In this document: piece by piece, positions 4,163 through 62,100 of the stretch
Layout: every line of letters starts with the position of its first letter
Position numbering within the stretch: the first letter of the stretch is position 1
NCBI GenBank assembly: GCA_003577305.1
Contig: QEVL01000010.1
Span: forward strand, 1 to 64,000
Origin: Burkholderiales bacterium
GTDB taxonomy: Bacteria; Pseudomonadota; Gammaproteobacteria; Burkholderiales; Burkholderiaceae_E
DNA length: 64,000 bases
Direction: 5' to 3'
The notes under the pieces: model-generated
The model's database searches: none
What the model was told of the DNA's origin: nothing
Seen by the model: the letters and a program-made list of their open reading frames with translations, nothing else
Position numbers and translations under genes: made by a program

Positions 4163-4282
4163 GTGTGTCCCGGTGTTCCTGCGCAGGCTATCGCCGCAGG
4201 CGCACGGCCGGCATTGCGCCGGATCAATACGGGCGGGTTTTGCGGCCTCGCCCGTGCCGGTCCGGTGTGCGTCGCGCGCTCG

Positions 4283-4324
4283 CGCGGAAAAGAAAGGCCG
4301 GTGTGCACGCGGCACACCGGCCTT
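4283..4324 (-). terminator. Rho-independent terminator after tRNA-Asn
   Basis: On the minus strand a 13-bp perfect stem (AAGGCCGGTGTGC with GCACACCGGCCTT, 5-nt loop) is followed by a T-rich tract (TCTTTTCC). It begins seven bases beyond the tRNA 3' CCA. It ends the tRNA-Asn transcript and separates it from the ligase-E1-E2 operon. Confidence 0.85.
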
Positions 4325-4330
4325 CGGATC

Positions 4331-4639
4331 TGGCTCCCCGACCTGGGCTCGAACCAGGGACCTGCGGATTACAAGTGCCCGGAAGTTTCCAACCGGCTTG
4401 GACTTTCTCTTCGCCCTGGCCGGCGATACGCTCGCGCGCATCGCCCGCTGTAGGCGCACCCCGTAAAGTCTCTACACATGCCCGGCAGCGGTTGGTGGCC
4501 TCTGCCTGCTTGCTCGGGATTGCCTTAGCGCGTTGCGCCTTAGGGTTCCCCGAATTGGGGGTGTTTTCACCACGCGGTTTCCCGCGTGGGCTGCCATCGT
4601 GTCAACAGTCCGTCGCTCTACCGACTGAGCTATCGGGGA
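4331..4639 (-). tRNA. tRNA-Asn(GUU), interrupted by a group I intron
   Basis: The two exons are 4639-4605 and 4371-4331. Joined, they give a 76-nt tRNA including an encoded CCA. The acceptor stem is TCCCCGA/TCGGGGA, the D-arm stem is GCTC/GAGC, the anticodon loop is CTGTTAA (anticodon GTT, asparagine), and the T arm is CCTGG-TTCGAGC-CCAGG. The discriminator is G. The only blemish is an A27-C43 mismatch at the top of the anticodon stem. The 233-nt interruption falls between anticodon positions 35 and 36. Read without removing it, neither half is a tRNA; read spliced, every arm closes. A sigma-70-like promoter lies just upstream and a strong terminator just downstream, so the gene looks expressed. 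Confidence 0.9.
4372..4604 (-). ncRNA. Group I self-splicing intron in tRNA-Asn
   Basis: The last exon base T4605 is followed by an internal guide (GGCAG) that pairs with exon CUGU and puts a U-G wobble at the 5' splice site; the intron ends in G (4372). P2 is CCACGCGG-GAAA-CCGCGUGG with a GNRA tetraloop. The conserved core strings match the Azoarcus tRNA-Ile intron: AAUUCGGGGAACCCUAAG, UAAGGCAAUCCCGAGCAAGC, GUGUAGAGACUUUACGG (complement at 4461-4477) and AAGAGAAAGUCC (4400-4411). P7 pairs GACUU with AAGUC, where Azoarcus has GACUA with UAGUC, a compensatory change. Another hairpin is a 10-bp stem with a GCGA tetraloop. No endonuclease gene is present. The exact 5' junction could shift by one U; the final G favours 4604. 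Comparison with Azoarcus is from memory. Confidence 0.9.
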
Positions 4640-4649
4640 ACAATCTGCA

Positions 4650-4678
4650 ATTCTAGCGTGAGACCCGGGGCAATGTCG
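4650..4678 (-). promoter_or_regulatory. Promoter for tRNA-Asn
   Basis: On the minus strand a -10 element TAGAAT (4655-4650) lies 17 bp after a weak -35 CGACAT (4678-4673). Initiation would fall a few bases before the mature tRNA 5' end at 4639. It lies between the aminotransferase stop and the tRNA. Confidence 0.55.
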
Positions 4679-4693
4679 AATTGGCCGGCAACC

Positions 4694-5902
4694 CTATCCC
4701 TTGATCACCGCCGCCATCGCTTTCGCGACGTAATCGATGTTGCGAGTGTTCAGCGCAGCCAGGCAGATGCGGCCGGTGGCCACCGCGTAGATGCCGAATT
4801 CGTCGCGCAGGCGCTCGACCTGCGCCGGGTTCAGCCCCGAGTAGGAGAACATCCCGCGCTGGCGCGTGACGAAGGAGAAATCCGCGGTCACGCCATTCTC
4901 GCGCAGCTTGCGCACCAGCGCTTCGCGCATCGCGCGAATGCGCTCGCGCATCCCGGCGAGCTCGCTCTCCCAGAGTTGGCGCAGCGCGGGCGTGGACAGC
5001 ACGGCGGCAACGATCGCCGCGCCGTGCGTGGGCGGGTTCGAATAGCTGGTGCGGATGACCCGCTTGACCTGGCTGATCACGCGGGCGGTCTCGTTGCGAT
5101 CGGCAGTGACGATCGACAGCGCCCCGACGCGCTCGCCGTACAGCGAAAACGACTTCGAGAACGAGCTGGAGACGAAGAAGTCGAGGCCGGAGTCGGCGAA
5201 CTTGCGCAGTGCCAGCGCGTCGGCCTCGATGCCCTCGCCGAAGCCCTGGTAAGCCATGTCGAGGAACGCGACCAGGTCGCGTTCGCGCACCGCGGCAACC
5301 ACCGCATCCCACTGCGCGGCATCGAGATCGACGCCGGTGGGGTTGTGACAGCACGCGTGCAGCACGACGACCGAGCGCGCCGGCATCGACTTCAGCGCGG
5401 CGAGCATCGCGTCGAACTTCACGCCGTGCGTGGCCGCGTCGTAATAGGGGTAGGCACGAACCTCGTAGCCCGCCGCCTCGAAGAGCGCCCGATGGTTCTC
5501 CCAGCTCGGGTCGCTGATCCAGGTCCGCGCGGACGGATCGAGCCGTCGCAGGAAATCGGCGCCGATGCGCAGGCCGCCGGTGCCGCCGAGCGCCTCGAAA
5601 GTGGCCACGCGTCCGGCGGCGAGCAGCGGCGAGTCGGCCCCGAAGAGCAGTTGCTGCACCGCCTGGTTGTAGGCGGCGAAGCCTTCGATCGGCAGGTAGC
5701 CGCGGGCCGGTGCGCTGGCGATGCGTGCCTGCTCGGCCTGCTGCACGGCAGCCAGCAGGGGGATGCGGCCGTCGTCGTCGCAATAGACGCCGGCACCGAG
5801 GTTCACTTTCTGGCTTCGTTTGTCAGCATTGAAAGCTTCCGTGAGACCGAGAATCGGATCACGGGGCGCCATCTCGACGGTGGCGAACATCGACTGGCTC
5901 AT
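4694..5902 (-). CDS. tyrB: Aromatic/aspartate aminotransferase
   Basis: A 402-residue class I pyridoxal-phosphate aminotransferase that interconverts aspartate, glutamate or aromatic amino acids with their 2-oxo acids. The PLP lysine is K250 in SSSFSKSFSLYGERVG, and the NPTG motif is at residues 187-190. SLYGERVG resembles E. coli TyrB more than AspC, so I favour an aromatic/aspartate enzyme of the TyrB type. I start at the ATG at 5902 (MSQSMFATVEMAPRDP); the second ATG at 5890 would also give a normal family start. It is transcribed away from uvrB, the order seen in many Burkholderiales. The tRNA-Asn follows it on the same strand with its own promoter. Confidence 0.92.
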   Translation of the reverse strand: MSQSMFATVEMAPRDPILGLTEAFNADKRSQKVNLGAGVYCDDDGRIPLLAAVQQAEQARIASAPARGYLPIEGFAAYNQAVQQLLFGADSPLLAAGRVATFEALGGTGGLRIGADFLRRLDPSARTWISDPSWENHRALFEAAGYEVRAYPYYDAATHGVKFDAMLAALKSMPARSVVVLHACCHNPTGVDLDAAQWDAVVAAVRERDLVAFLDMAYQGFGEGIEADALALRKFADSGLDFFVSSSFSKSFSLYGERVGALSIVTADRNETARVISQVKRVIRTSYSNPPTHGAAIVAAVLSTPALRQLWESELAGMRERIRAMREALVRKLRENGVTADFSFVTRQRGMFSYSGLNPAQVERLRDEFGIYAVATGRICLAALNTRNIDYVAKAMAAVIKG

Positions 5903-6222
5903 GGCGGTCGGTGAAGTGGTTGAGTTGCGGGGGTGGGGGCGGGAACCGGGACTGGGTGCAATGCACAATTTTCGTGCAGGGCACTGGATTTTCGGGGGCG
6001 TCGCAGCGATAATTCCAGTTTGCCCGAAAGGCCGGCAAAAGCCTTGCGGCGAAAGACTTCCTTACCCTGCGAGCGAGCCGTGGAACGACCGCCGGACCGG
6101 TGAATCCGGCAGTGAATCCAGCCGTCGCACAGTGATTGTGCGACGCAGTATCGCGGACCCCCGCAGGCCATCCGGAACCCCGACGAGTGTAGCACGCCGA
6201 TACGCGCCACCCGAGCCACACG
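5903..6222. other. Divergent intergenic region tyrB/uvrB
   Basis: These 320 bases hold no gene I can support. They should carry both promoters. On the minus strand there are AT-richer stretches around 5970-6020 that could serve tyrB. Near uvrB there are two inverted repeats, the stronger at 6124-6144. I see no CTGT-N8-ACAG LexA-type box. Confidence 0.5.
6124..6144. repeat. 21-bp palindrome upstream of uvrB
   Basis: GTCGCACA and TGTGCGAC form a perfect 8-bp inverted repeat around GTGAT. It ends 78 bp before the uvrB start. It could be an operator or a hairpin in the leader; nothing identifies a regulator. Confidence 0.5.
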
Positions 6223-59177: not shown

Positions 59178-62100
59178 ATGGACATGAACCGCAGACAGTT
59201 CTTCCGCGTCAGCGCGGCAGGACTGGTCGGGTCCAGCCTTGCGGCAATGGGTTTTTCACCCACCGCCGCACTGGCCGAGACCCGCGCCTTCAAACTCGCC
59301 CACGCCAGCGTGGCGCGCAGCACCTGTCCGTACTGTTCGGTCAGCTGTGGAATGCTGATCTACAAGCTCGGCGACGGCGCGAAGAATGCGAAGGAGCGCA
59401 TCATCCACGTCGAGGGCGACCCCGATCATCCGGTGAGCCGCGGTTCGCTTTGCCCGAAAGGCGCAGGCGTTCTCGACATGATCAACTCGCCCAACCGCGT
59501 GAAGTACCCGCAGGTGCGCGAGCCCGGCAGCAAGGAGTGGAAGCGCATCGGCTGGGACGAAGCCCTCACGCGCATCGCGAAGCTCATGAAAGCCGACCGC
59601 GACGCGAACTTCGTGCAGAAGAACGACGCCGGCGTCACCGTGAACCGCTGGCTCACGACCGGCTTCCTGATCTGCAGTTCTTCGTCCAACGAATCCAGTT
59701 ACCTCACCGTCAAGGTCGCGCGCGGCCTCGGAATGGTAGGAATCGATACGCAGGCACGTGTCTGACACGCACCGACGGTGACCAGTCTGGGCCCGACGTT
59801 CGGTCGCGGAGCGATGACCAACTCCTGGAACGACATCAAGAACGCTGATCTCGTTCTCGTGATGGGCGGCAATGCCGCCGAAGCCCACCCCGTGGGGTTC
59901 AAGTGGGTGATCGAAGCGATGCGCAAGCGCAAGGCGCGTCTGATTTCGGTCGACCCGCGCTTCAACCGCACCTCCGCAGTGGCGGATCTGTACGCGCCGA
60001 TCCGCAACGGCAGCGACATCGCCTTCCTGGGCGGCGTCATCAACTGGCTGTTGAGCAACGACAAGATCCATCGCGATTACGTCAAGTTCAACACCGACGC
60101 CACGTTCCTGCTCAAGCCGGGCTTCAGCTTCGACGGCGGCTTCTTCAGCGGCTACGACGAAGCGAAGCGCAGGTACGACAAGTCGACCTGGGGCTACCAG
60201 CTCGACGAAAACGGCCACATCCGGGTCGACGACAGCATGCAGGATCCGCTGTGCGTGTTCCAGCAGCTGAAGAAGCACTACAGCCGCTACACGCCGGAAA
60301 TGGTGAGCCGCATCTGCGGCACGCCGCAGGACAAGTTCCTGAAGATCTGCGAGATGCTCGGCGAGATGTCGGCACCCGACAAGACCAGCACCATCCTGTA
60401 TGCGCTGGGCTGGACGCAGCACACGGTGGGCAGCCAGAACATCCGCACCATGGCCATGATCCAGCTTCTGCTGGGCAACATGGGACGGCCGGGCGGCGGC
60501 GTGAACGCGCTGCGCGGGCACTCGAACGTGCAGGGCGTCACCGACATGAACGCCTACGCCGAGGTGTTCTCGGGCTACATGACCGCGCCGGGCGACAGCG
60601 ACGACACCTACGCGAAGTTCCTCGCGCGGGCCACGCCGAAGGCGCTGCGCCCGAACCAGTTCAACTACTGGAGCAACTTCCCGAGGTTCTGGGTCAGCCT
60701 GATGAAGTCGTACTACGGCAAGGCGGCCCAGCCCGAGAACAGCTTCTGCTACGACTGGGTGCCCAAGTTCCCGGGCGGCTTCGACGTGATGCATATGTTC
60801 GAGCTGATGCACCAGGGCAAGATGAACGGCTTCATCTCGTCGGGTTTCAACCCGCTGGCCACGGTGCCGAACAAGAACAAGCTGTCGGCGGCGCTCTCGA
60901 AGCTGAAATACCTGGTGATCATCGATCCGCTCGAAACGGAAACGAGCGAGTTCTGGCAGAACTTCGGGTCTGTCAACGACGTCAAGCCCGAGAGCGTCCA
61001 GACCGAGGTCTTCCGCCTGCCGGCCGCGTGCTTCGCCGAAGAGGCGGGCAGCTTCACCAACTCCAGCCGCGTGATGATCTGGAAGGAAAGGGCGATCGAT
61101 CCGCCCGGCGAAGCGAAGGTGGATGCCGAGATCATGGCCCGGCTCTTCGTCAGGCTGCGCGAGATGTACGCGAAGGAAGGAGGGGCGCTGCCCGAGCCGA
61201 TCCTCGGGATGGCCTGGGACTACGTCCAGCCCAACGAACCCTCGTCGAGCGAGTTGCTGCGCGAGATCAGCGGCAAGGCGCTCTCCGACGTCCTCGCTCC
61301 GCCCGACCCTGCAAACCCGTCGGCGCCGCGCGCGGTGCTGGTCAAGGCCGGGCAGCAGGTGCCGGGCTTTGCGATGCTGCGCGACGACGGTTCGACCGCC
61401 TGCGGCAACTGGCTGTATTCGGGCTGCTGGTCCGAGGCCGGAAACCTCACCGCCCGGCGCAGCCTCTCCGACCCGACCGGCCTGGGCGTCTATCCGCAGT
61501 TCGGGTATTCGTGGCCGGCCAACCGCCGCATCATGTACAACCGCGCGAGTGCCGACAAGGACGGCAAGCCCTGGTCGGAGAACAAGAAGTACGTGTACTG
61601 GAACGGCAAGACCTGGACCGGTGCCGACGTGCCCGACATGCTGCCGACCGCGGCGCCGAGCATCGGCATGGGCTCGTTCATCATGACCCCCGAAGGCGCG
61701 GCGCGACTGCACGCCATCGGCATGGCCGACGGGCCGTTCCCGGAGCACTACGAACCGTTCGAGACCCCGATCGGCGTCAATCCGATGCACCCCGACAACC
61801 CGAAGGCGATCAGCAATCCGGTCGCACGGGTGTTCAAGAGCGACATGGACGCGTTCGGCAAGAAGGACGAGTTCCCGTATTCGGCAACCACCTACCGGCT
61901 CACCGAGCACTTCCACTACTGGACGAAGCACTCGAAGCTCAATGCGATCGTGCAGCCCGAGTCCTTCGTGGAAATCAGCGAGGAACTGGCCAGCGAGAAG
62001 GGCATCCGCCACGGCGACACGGTCAAGGTGAGCAGCAACCGCGGCCATATCGTCACCAAGGCGGTAGTCACCAAACGCATCAGGCCGTTCGACGTCAACG

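Follow-up and report, generated by a model that had tools for sequence, protein, structure and literature searches.

A group I intron of predicted IC3 type in the anticodon of tRNA-Asn(GUU) in a genus of Burkholderiales, with introns at the same site in other bacteria and in virus-collection contigs

Among the bacterial tRNA genes that carry group I introns, the tRNA-Ile(CAU) gene of Azoarcus, whose group IC3 intron was reportedly described by Tanner and Cech in 1996, resembles the one treated here in that a small IC3-type intron lies in the anticodon loop of a betaproteobacterial tRNA, but the tRNA and the insertion point are different. The intron of the cyanobacterial and plastid tRNA-Leu(UAA) gene likewise belongs to group I and resides in a different tRNA, and in the proteobacterial Leu(UAA) introns of the genomes examined here the anticodon itself is split too (34/35). 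The cyanobacterial tRNA-fMet intron, said to have been found with an endonuclease by Bonocora and Shub in 2001, shares with the Asn introns its position in the anticodon loop and the existence of a mobile form with an endonuclease, but it has a different host tRNA, and in the Asn set such a gene (HNH or LAGLIDADG) was seen in distant introns only. Introns in tRNA-Ile2 of Acidovorax and Burkholderia are mentioned in the passages of the tRNAscan-SE 2.0 paper that deal with them (PMC8450103); like ours they are missed by tRNA finders and occur in related bacteria, but their host is tRNA-Ile2, and Asn is not named in the context of those passages. A survey of chloroplast genomes, in the section concerned, places tRNA-Asn among the intron-free isotypes (PMC9840617), and a 2014 review states, in its passage on phage introns, that those then known were all located in protein-coding genes, despite the many phage tRNAs (PMC3984707). 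No report of a group I intron in a bacterial tRNA-Asn gene was found in the open-licence literature, and therefore the suggestion, made in the initial annotation, that this is a new insertion site stands as far as that literature goes; the same site is also used in other phyla and in phages.

The DNA analysed was a stretch of 64,000 nucleotides of a Burkholderiales bacterium (contig QEVL01000010.1, hereafter the window). A tRNA-Asn(GUU) gene is present on its minus strand (4331-4639) in two halves around a 233-nt group I intron, which is inserted inside the anticodon (35/36). The coordinates, the length of 233 nt and the spliced product of 76 nt were found as first described, and so were the U-G pair in P1, the terminal G and the GAAA loop of P2; the strand was absent from that description. 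The features of the locus are:

4694-5968, minus strand: aromatic amino acid transaminase gene, the neighbour, used as synteny marker of the orthologous locus
4650-4679, minus strand: promoter-like site upstream of tRNA-Asn, a consensus match only (10/12 matches)
4639-4605, minus strand: tRNA-Asn 5' exon, 35 nt, positions 1-35, last bases G34-U35
4604-4372, minus strand: 233-nt group I intron, inserted between positions 35 and 36 of the tRNA
4589-4595, minus strand: internal guide GGCAGCC, pairing with GGaCUGU of the 5' exon to form P1, with U-G at the splice site
4571-4588, minus strand: P2 hairpin with GAAA loop, both-side changes in 4/7 pairs
4457-4563, minus strand: P3-P6 domain including the 5' strand of P7 (4466-4472), from the structure alignment
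4412-4456, minus strand: P8 region, four pairs in the structure alignment
4400-4405, minus strand: 3' strand of P7, forming the guanosine-binding helix with 4466-4472
4379-4396, minus strand: P9 hairpin with GAAA loop, two mismatches (U-U) in the window copy
4371-4331, minus strand: tRNA-Asn 3' exon, 41 nt, U36 to the encoded CCA
4288-4325, minus strand: terminator-like hairpin directly after tRNA-Asn (14 pairs, then CTTTT), seen in the fold alone and absent from the list of the promoter/terminator scan

When the exons were joined in silico, a 76-nt tRNA with a CCA end was obtained for the window copy and likewise for all 12 copies of the genus. The intron ends in CUUG and the 3' exon starts with UAAUCC. 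In the window's genus the first base of the intron is a U, so that the 5' side alone fits 35/36 as well as 36/37; the boundaries were placed from the terminal G and at 35/36 because tRNA-Asn introns at the same site elsewhere start with C or A. ARAGORN called no tRNA at 4331-4639, and the sole tRNA that it listed in the window was a tRNA-Ser(GGA). Elsewhere in the window (59760-59818, plus strand) a SECIS_3 element was found over an in-frame TGA (71.5 bits, cut-off 63), which looks like the selenocysteine site of a formate dehydrogenase gene (gene named by eye).

A cmscan of 4250-4720 with a permissive threshold, a check proposed in the initial annotation, yielded a match to Intron_gpI (RF00028) at 4379-4615 on the minus strand that spans the whole length of the model (1-253) and is significant (E 6.3e-6), but its 30.2 bits remain below the curated gathering score of 50, which is why a default Rfam scan is silent on the intron. 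The same family at E 0.01 recovered only 8 of the 12 Asn introns of the genus, and when six 35/36 loci were scanned, four passed 50 bits (L302 92.8, L108 75.4, L299 70.7 and L303 53.0) and two scored below it (L306 40.6, L090 33.4). Our own core model R1, built from 11 introns, matched the window intron with 120 bits (E 8e-37), the window copy being one of its training sequences. The intron has a P3-P8 core with the P3/P7 pseudoknot. Introns of subgroup IC3 are small, lack P7.1/P7.2, reside in tRNA genes and have a P2 and a P9 capped by GAAA, and all of these features were read by eye in the window intron. We conclude that it is an ordinary ribozyme of predicted IC3 type in a previously unreported host gene. 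With its 233 nt it has room for at most 77 codons and shows no gene for the homing endonuclease of a mobile group I intron.

Comparison of the 12 orthologous copies (56 pairs, 672 cells) showed standard pairs in 96.4% of the cells. Both-side changes were observed in seven of the 56 pairs (20 cells), located in P2, P3 and P9. Shuffling gave a mean of 6.5 covarying cells and never as many as 20 (0/500), and slides of 1-3 columns gave 0-3; the paired changes in the intron thus exceed chance. The pairs of P1 (six), P4 and P7 are formed in all 12 copies and are invariant within the genus, and therefore are uninformative on covariation there; the final U of the 5' exon is paired with G in P1, and the intron ends in G, in every copy. 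A compensatory pair in P7 had been noted earlier; over 11 related introns (six of the window's genus, four other Asn introns and one from tRNA-Ile(CAU)) the last pair of P7 is UA in seven, AU in three and CG in one.

The 18 genomes of the genus comprise 12 with a split tRNA-Asn gene (the window's included), three with an intact orthologue (G001, G002 and G003) and three, 83, 94 and 86% complete (G009, G010 and G015), in which neither was found. In G001 the homology to the window extends from the transaminase gene up to exactly both ends of the intron, marking its intact gene, by sequence comparison, as the orthologous empty site. Structure, covariation, the orthologues and this empty site all support the claim of a group I intron in tRNA-Asn(GUU). 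The exons are identical in the 12 copies except for three, two of which have a paired change in the T-stem and one two single changes. A full-length intact tRNA-Asn gene, which had been named as evidence that would count against the proposal, was found neither in the window's genome nor in the 11 intron-bearing sister genomes searched; five of the 12 are at least 95% complete, and in the window's genome, which is 90.7% complete, an intact copy may have been left unassembled. The remaining tRNA matches fetched from five genomes of the genus were tRNA-Met (three), tRNA-Lys and tRNA-Phe, those in intron-bearing genomes being the tRNA-Met of G000 and the tRNA-Lys of G008. Because these 12 genomes show no intact gene, predicted splicing looks essential to the intron-bearing members of the genus. 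As to the identity of the genus members, G013 has identical 1-kb stretches in a record named Lautropia sp. SCN 69-89, and four others match records named Burkholderiaceae bacterium. Two further introns were seen in the genus: G004 (L039, G004:C20) has, beside its tRNA-Asn intron, a second tRNA intron at 33/34 of a gene with anticodon CAU, and G011 (G011:C28, L031 1501-2222) has, in what reads as a 23S rRNA gene, a group I intron (66.2 bits) that carries a LAGLIDADG gene (PF00961, E 7.2e-23).

Very probably, then, the gene is a tRNA-Asn split by an IC3-type group I ribozyme that is removed by splicing, on which the cell depends. The chemistry and efficiency of splicing, and the dependence on it, we infer as follows. 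Transcription would give a precursor tRNA-Asn in which the intron folds as an IC3-type ribozyme and P1 forms between the guide GGCAGCC and GGaCUGU at the end of the 5' exon; an exogenous guanosine bound in P7 would attack after U35, and the freed U35 would then attack behind the intron's terminal G, so that G34-U35 would be ligated to U36 and the anticodon GUU restored. Since the split gene is the only tRNA-Asn found, the reading of AAU and AAC codons should rely on this splicing. That the intron is instead a degenerate group I element without unaided splicing, kept by virtue of a host protein or of another tRNA-Asn, seems improbable to us: the Rfam score below threshold, the mismatches in P9 (two in 9 of the 12 copies) and the incomplete genome would fit such an element, but the pairs of P1, P4 and P7 are formed in 12/12 copies, and no intact tRNA-Asn was found in the 12 intron-bearing genomes, of which five reach a completeness of 95% or more. 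An archaeal-type intron spliced by proteins, or a chance break in a tRNA pseudogene, would share with our locus the interrupted anticodon loop and nothing further, and is hardly credible, being already refuted by the group I structure; the group I core, the covariation and the near-identical exons in 12 copies argue against it.

Two histories of the intron were weighed, descent within the genus and separate recent insertions of a mobile element in its members. A tree of the transaminase gene pairs the intronless G001 with the intron-bearing G016 (100/100), groups the intronless G003 with the intron-bearing G007 and G008 (100/100) and places G002 within a clade of ten, nine of them intron-bearing, its exact place in that clade being poorly resolved. 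Well-supported branches force at least four changes of presence and absence over the 23 rows, other intron types being scored as present. These three intronless species inside clades with intron-bearing ones speak for separate transfers, as do the endonucleases of introns at the same site elsewhere and a split gene (L145) at one end (positions 1-306) of a contig assigned by binning to Gallionellaceae, whose similarity to the window (91.8% identity, blastn) is confined to the 306 nt of the gene and would reflect either transfer or misbinning. Against this, the distances between introns agree with those between the neighbouring transaminase genes (Mantel r 0.63 for 13 rows and 0.66 for 12 rows, 0/10,000 permutations as high), no endonuclease gene was seen in the window copy or the other copies of the genus, and the transaminase gene adjoins the split gene in all 12 copies; in G073, a member of another genus of the family, it shares a contig with a related split tRNA-Asn about 3.6 kb away. 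We therefore regard separate transfers as unlikely, if still a history to be reckoned with. Old presence with several losses within the genus fits best, and the window copy looks mostly vertically inherited; regain within the genus may also have occurred.

Related introns occur in other tRNA genes as well. R1 found a match in 28 of the 74 family genomes (E 0.001), in 60 of a sample of 399 genomes from the order and in 40 of a sample of 398 from the phylum (both E 0.0001); the samples overlap. A script assigned a host to 86 of 108 loci (22 were left without) and to 24 of 28 new loci in a further set, and one of the 86 (L224, score 30) is probably spurious; the labels His, Phe and Leu 33/34 were doubtful and left out. 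Commonest were tRNAs with anticodon CAU (33/34 or 36/37), inferred to be tRNA-Ile2, Leu(UAA) at 34/35 and the Asn gene of the window's genus, next to one Arg(CCU) and two Thr(UGU). Among the host-assigned loci of the order and phylum samples, for which all but nine places of the phylum were fetched, no Asn host was found outside the window's genus. The Asn introns of this genus form their own group in the trees drawn, apart from the Leu introns, and the introns of CAU tRNAs group apart from them too. The two Thr(UGU) cases (L201 and L218), from two genomes that belong to a single genus of the order, have a group I intron of 215-216 nt at 36/37; we know of no report of one in this tRNA. The tRNA-Leu introns L178, L179 and L248 (window's genus) and L186 (same family) have GAGC/GCUC in P7 instead of the usual GACU/AGUC, by eye a paired swap in the guanosine-binding helix. 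In a plasmid collection the window locus matched 14 records, with intact or partial tRNA-Asn exon matches; a partial core match on the E. coli plasmid pHum4b proved to be a tRNA-Leu(UAA) intron. On this plasmid (NZ_OR724977.1, L156, about 1451-1747), typed as conjugative, a 211-nt IC3-like intron interrupts the tRNA-Leu(UAA) gene at 34/35, and its gene table shows no RNA genes, the split tRNA-Leu being absent from it.

A search of other genomes for tRNA-Asn introns had been recommended, and such introns were found at the same site in other phyla and in virus-collection contigs. A pattern scan of GTDB gave at least 115 loci, from which no prevalence can be derived since the pattern demands a GGCAG guide. 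Among the listed loci ARAGORN called a tRNA in 93 and none in 22. In 18 of these 22 the two exons flank a group I core at the 35/36 site: five of the window's genus identified via twin records (L052, L072, L096, L129, L151), L145 with an intron of that type, six further records from betaproteobacteria (L048, L065, L090, L112, L123, L147, of which L065 and L123 share an identical intron), three from Nitrospirota (L060, L108, L117), two from Omnitrophota (L078, L134) and one from Planctomycetales (L081). Rejected or incomplete were L093 and L130, cut by contig ends (L130 ends after an HNH-like start), L086, an intact tRNA-Asn gene cut by a contig end, and the archaeal L042, with a short insert only (by eye); L062 and L089, which stood out among the 93 by odd ARAGORN isotypes, showed no group I-sized insert on reading. 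By eye, eight of the 18 (L048, L065, L108, L112, L117, L123, L134, L147) are IA-like, with an extra stretch between P7 and P3, and the other ten look IC3-like. Endonuclease genes among the introns at this site were found only in distant ones, namely an HNH gene from the P1 loop into the core of L108 (PF01844, E 2.1e-4, score 21.8, cut-off 21.4) and a LAGLIDADG gene in the virus-collection locus L306; L117 has an apparent decayed HNH remnant. The genomes of L065 and L145 also hold an intact tRNA-Asn, so dependence on splicing is not universal. At L065 and L123 a second, partial 3' half of tRNA-Asn was seen about 100 bases downstream of the split gene, which might be the trace of an element integrated at the tRNA.

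A pattern scan of IMG/VR, with a pattern that demands GGCAGC, gave 24 loci, in 17 of which a script found tRNA-Asn(GUU) split at 35/36 by 193-207 nt. An eighteenth, L306, has its 3' exon beyond the LAGLIDADG gene (PF03161, E 1.5e-23); the locus (L306 about 4661-5590, from a 232,533-base contig) has an intron of about 0.84 kb in all. Of L297, L298, L307 and L315 only the 5' part was found, and L311 and L313 were chance pattern matches. The sequence retrieved around each of the 18 virus loci contains one or more further tRNA genes, in most cases at least four, and in three cases a tmRNA. Of four scanned with Rfam, L302, L299 and L303 pass the cut-off and L306 falls below it. A match to the terminase large subunit was found in five of 20 virus records (L299, L298, L306, L309, L316) and none in the 470-kb record of L302, and this family has matches in 11 of 14 cellular genomes used as controls as well; the remaining records are viral by the IMG/VR call, and L296, L302, L312 and L319 also by some PHROG matches. 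In a phage collection the best 20 of the 28 records matched by the window locus showed exon matches, some phages having the 3' exon only or the 3' exon with the last bases of the intron, and immunity repressors lie beside the exon matches in several of them. No record of the plasmid (14) or phage (28) collection matched over 80% or more of the query. A phage Asn intron as query matched 14 records, of which five were examined; the annotation of four of these gives genes for capsid or tape-measure proteins or hypothetical genes, without a tRNA (from the annotation alone). The match to phage RIO-1 is annotated as a primase/helicase intron, and that to LR756501, the fifth record examined, was rejected as an Asn case, its host being tRNA-Leu. 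In this 735,411-base phage record (L320, about 190,296-190,452) a 205-nt group I intron interrupts a tRNA-Leu(UAA) at 34/35; ARAGORN missed this tRNA-Leu, and the record is without annotation.

Common ancestry of all Asn introns was neither shown nor rejected by the trees. These were built from 100 different introns, none of them longer than 300 nt and all with a score of at least 37, seven IA-like introns having been set aside beforehand and L182, L183 and L243 dropped as IA-like after the first tree, in which the Asn rows formed no clade and two changes were needed. With whole introns and the IA-like rows removed, the 18 bacterial Asn rows lie on one side of a branch (99/97), though the host gene dictates both P1 and the guide, and these may draw the rows together. 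On P3-P7 only, 17 Asn rows hold together (100/100) in a run from which L078 was left out after its long branch had shown, and with L078 the 18 rows form no clade (p-AU 0.413). With phage rows added the Asn introns fall into several groups (p-AU 0.432 for one clade).

With the intron of the window, tRNA-Asn joins the bacterial genes that host group I introns, and in the window's genus the decoding of asparagine seems to rely on a predicted ribozyme; the wider set at 35/36 matters more than this single intron. In the broadest reading, which in our judgement has an even chance of being right, the 35/36 phosphate of tRNA-Asn(GUU) would be a widespread unrecognised homing site, used by at least two structural types of group I intron in several bacterial phyla and in tRNA-rich phages that move introns between hosts, with HNH and LAGLIDADG forms sustaining mobility; in the window's genus the intron would have become the sole gate to asparagine decoding, and the site would have stayed hidden as tRNA finders skip split genes. 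The introns in tRNA-Asn of virus contigs and in tRNA-Leu of a 735-kb phage contrast with what the 2014 review says of phage introns in the passage cited above (PMC3984707), and make phage carriage of tRNA introns directly testable. Split genes of this kind could also explain 'missing' tRNA-Asn genes in annotations.
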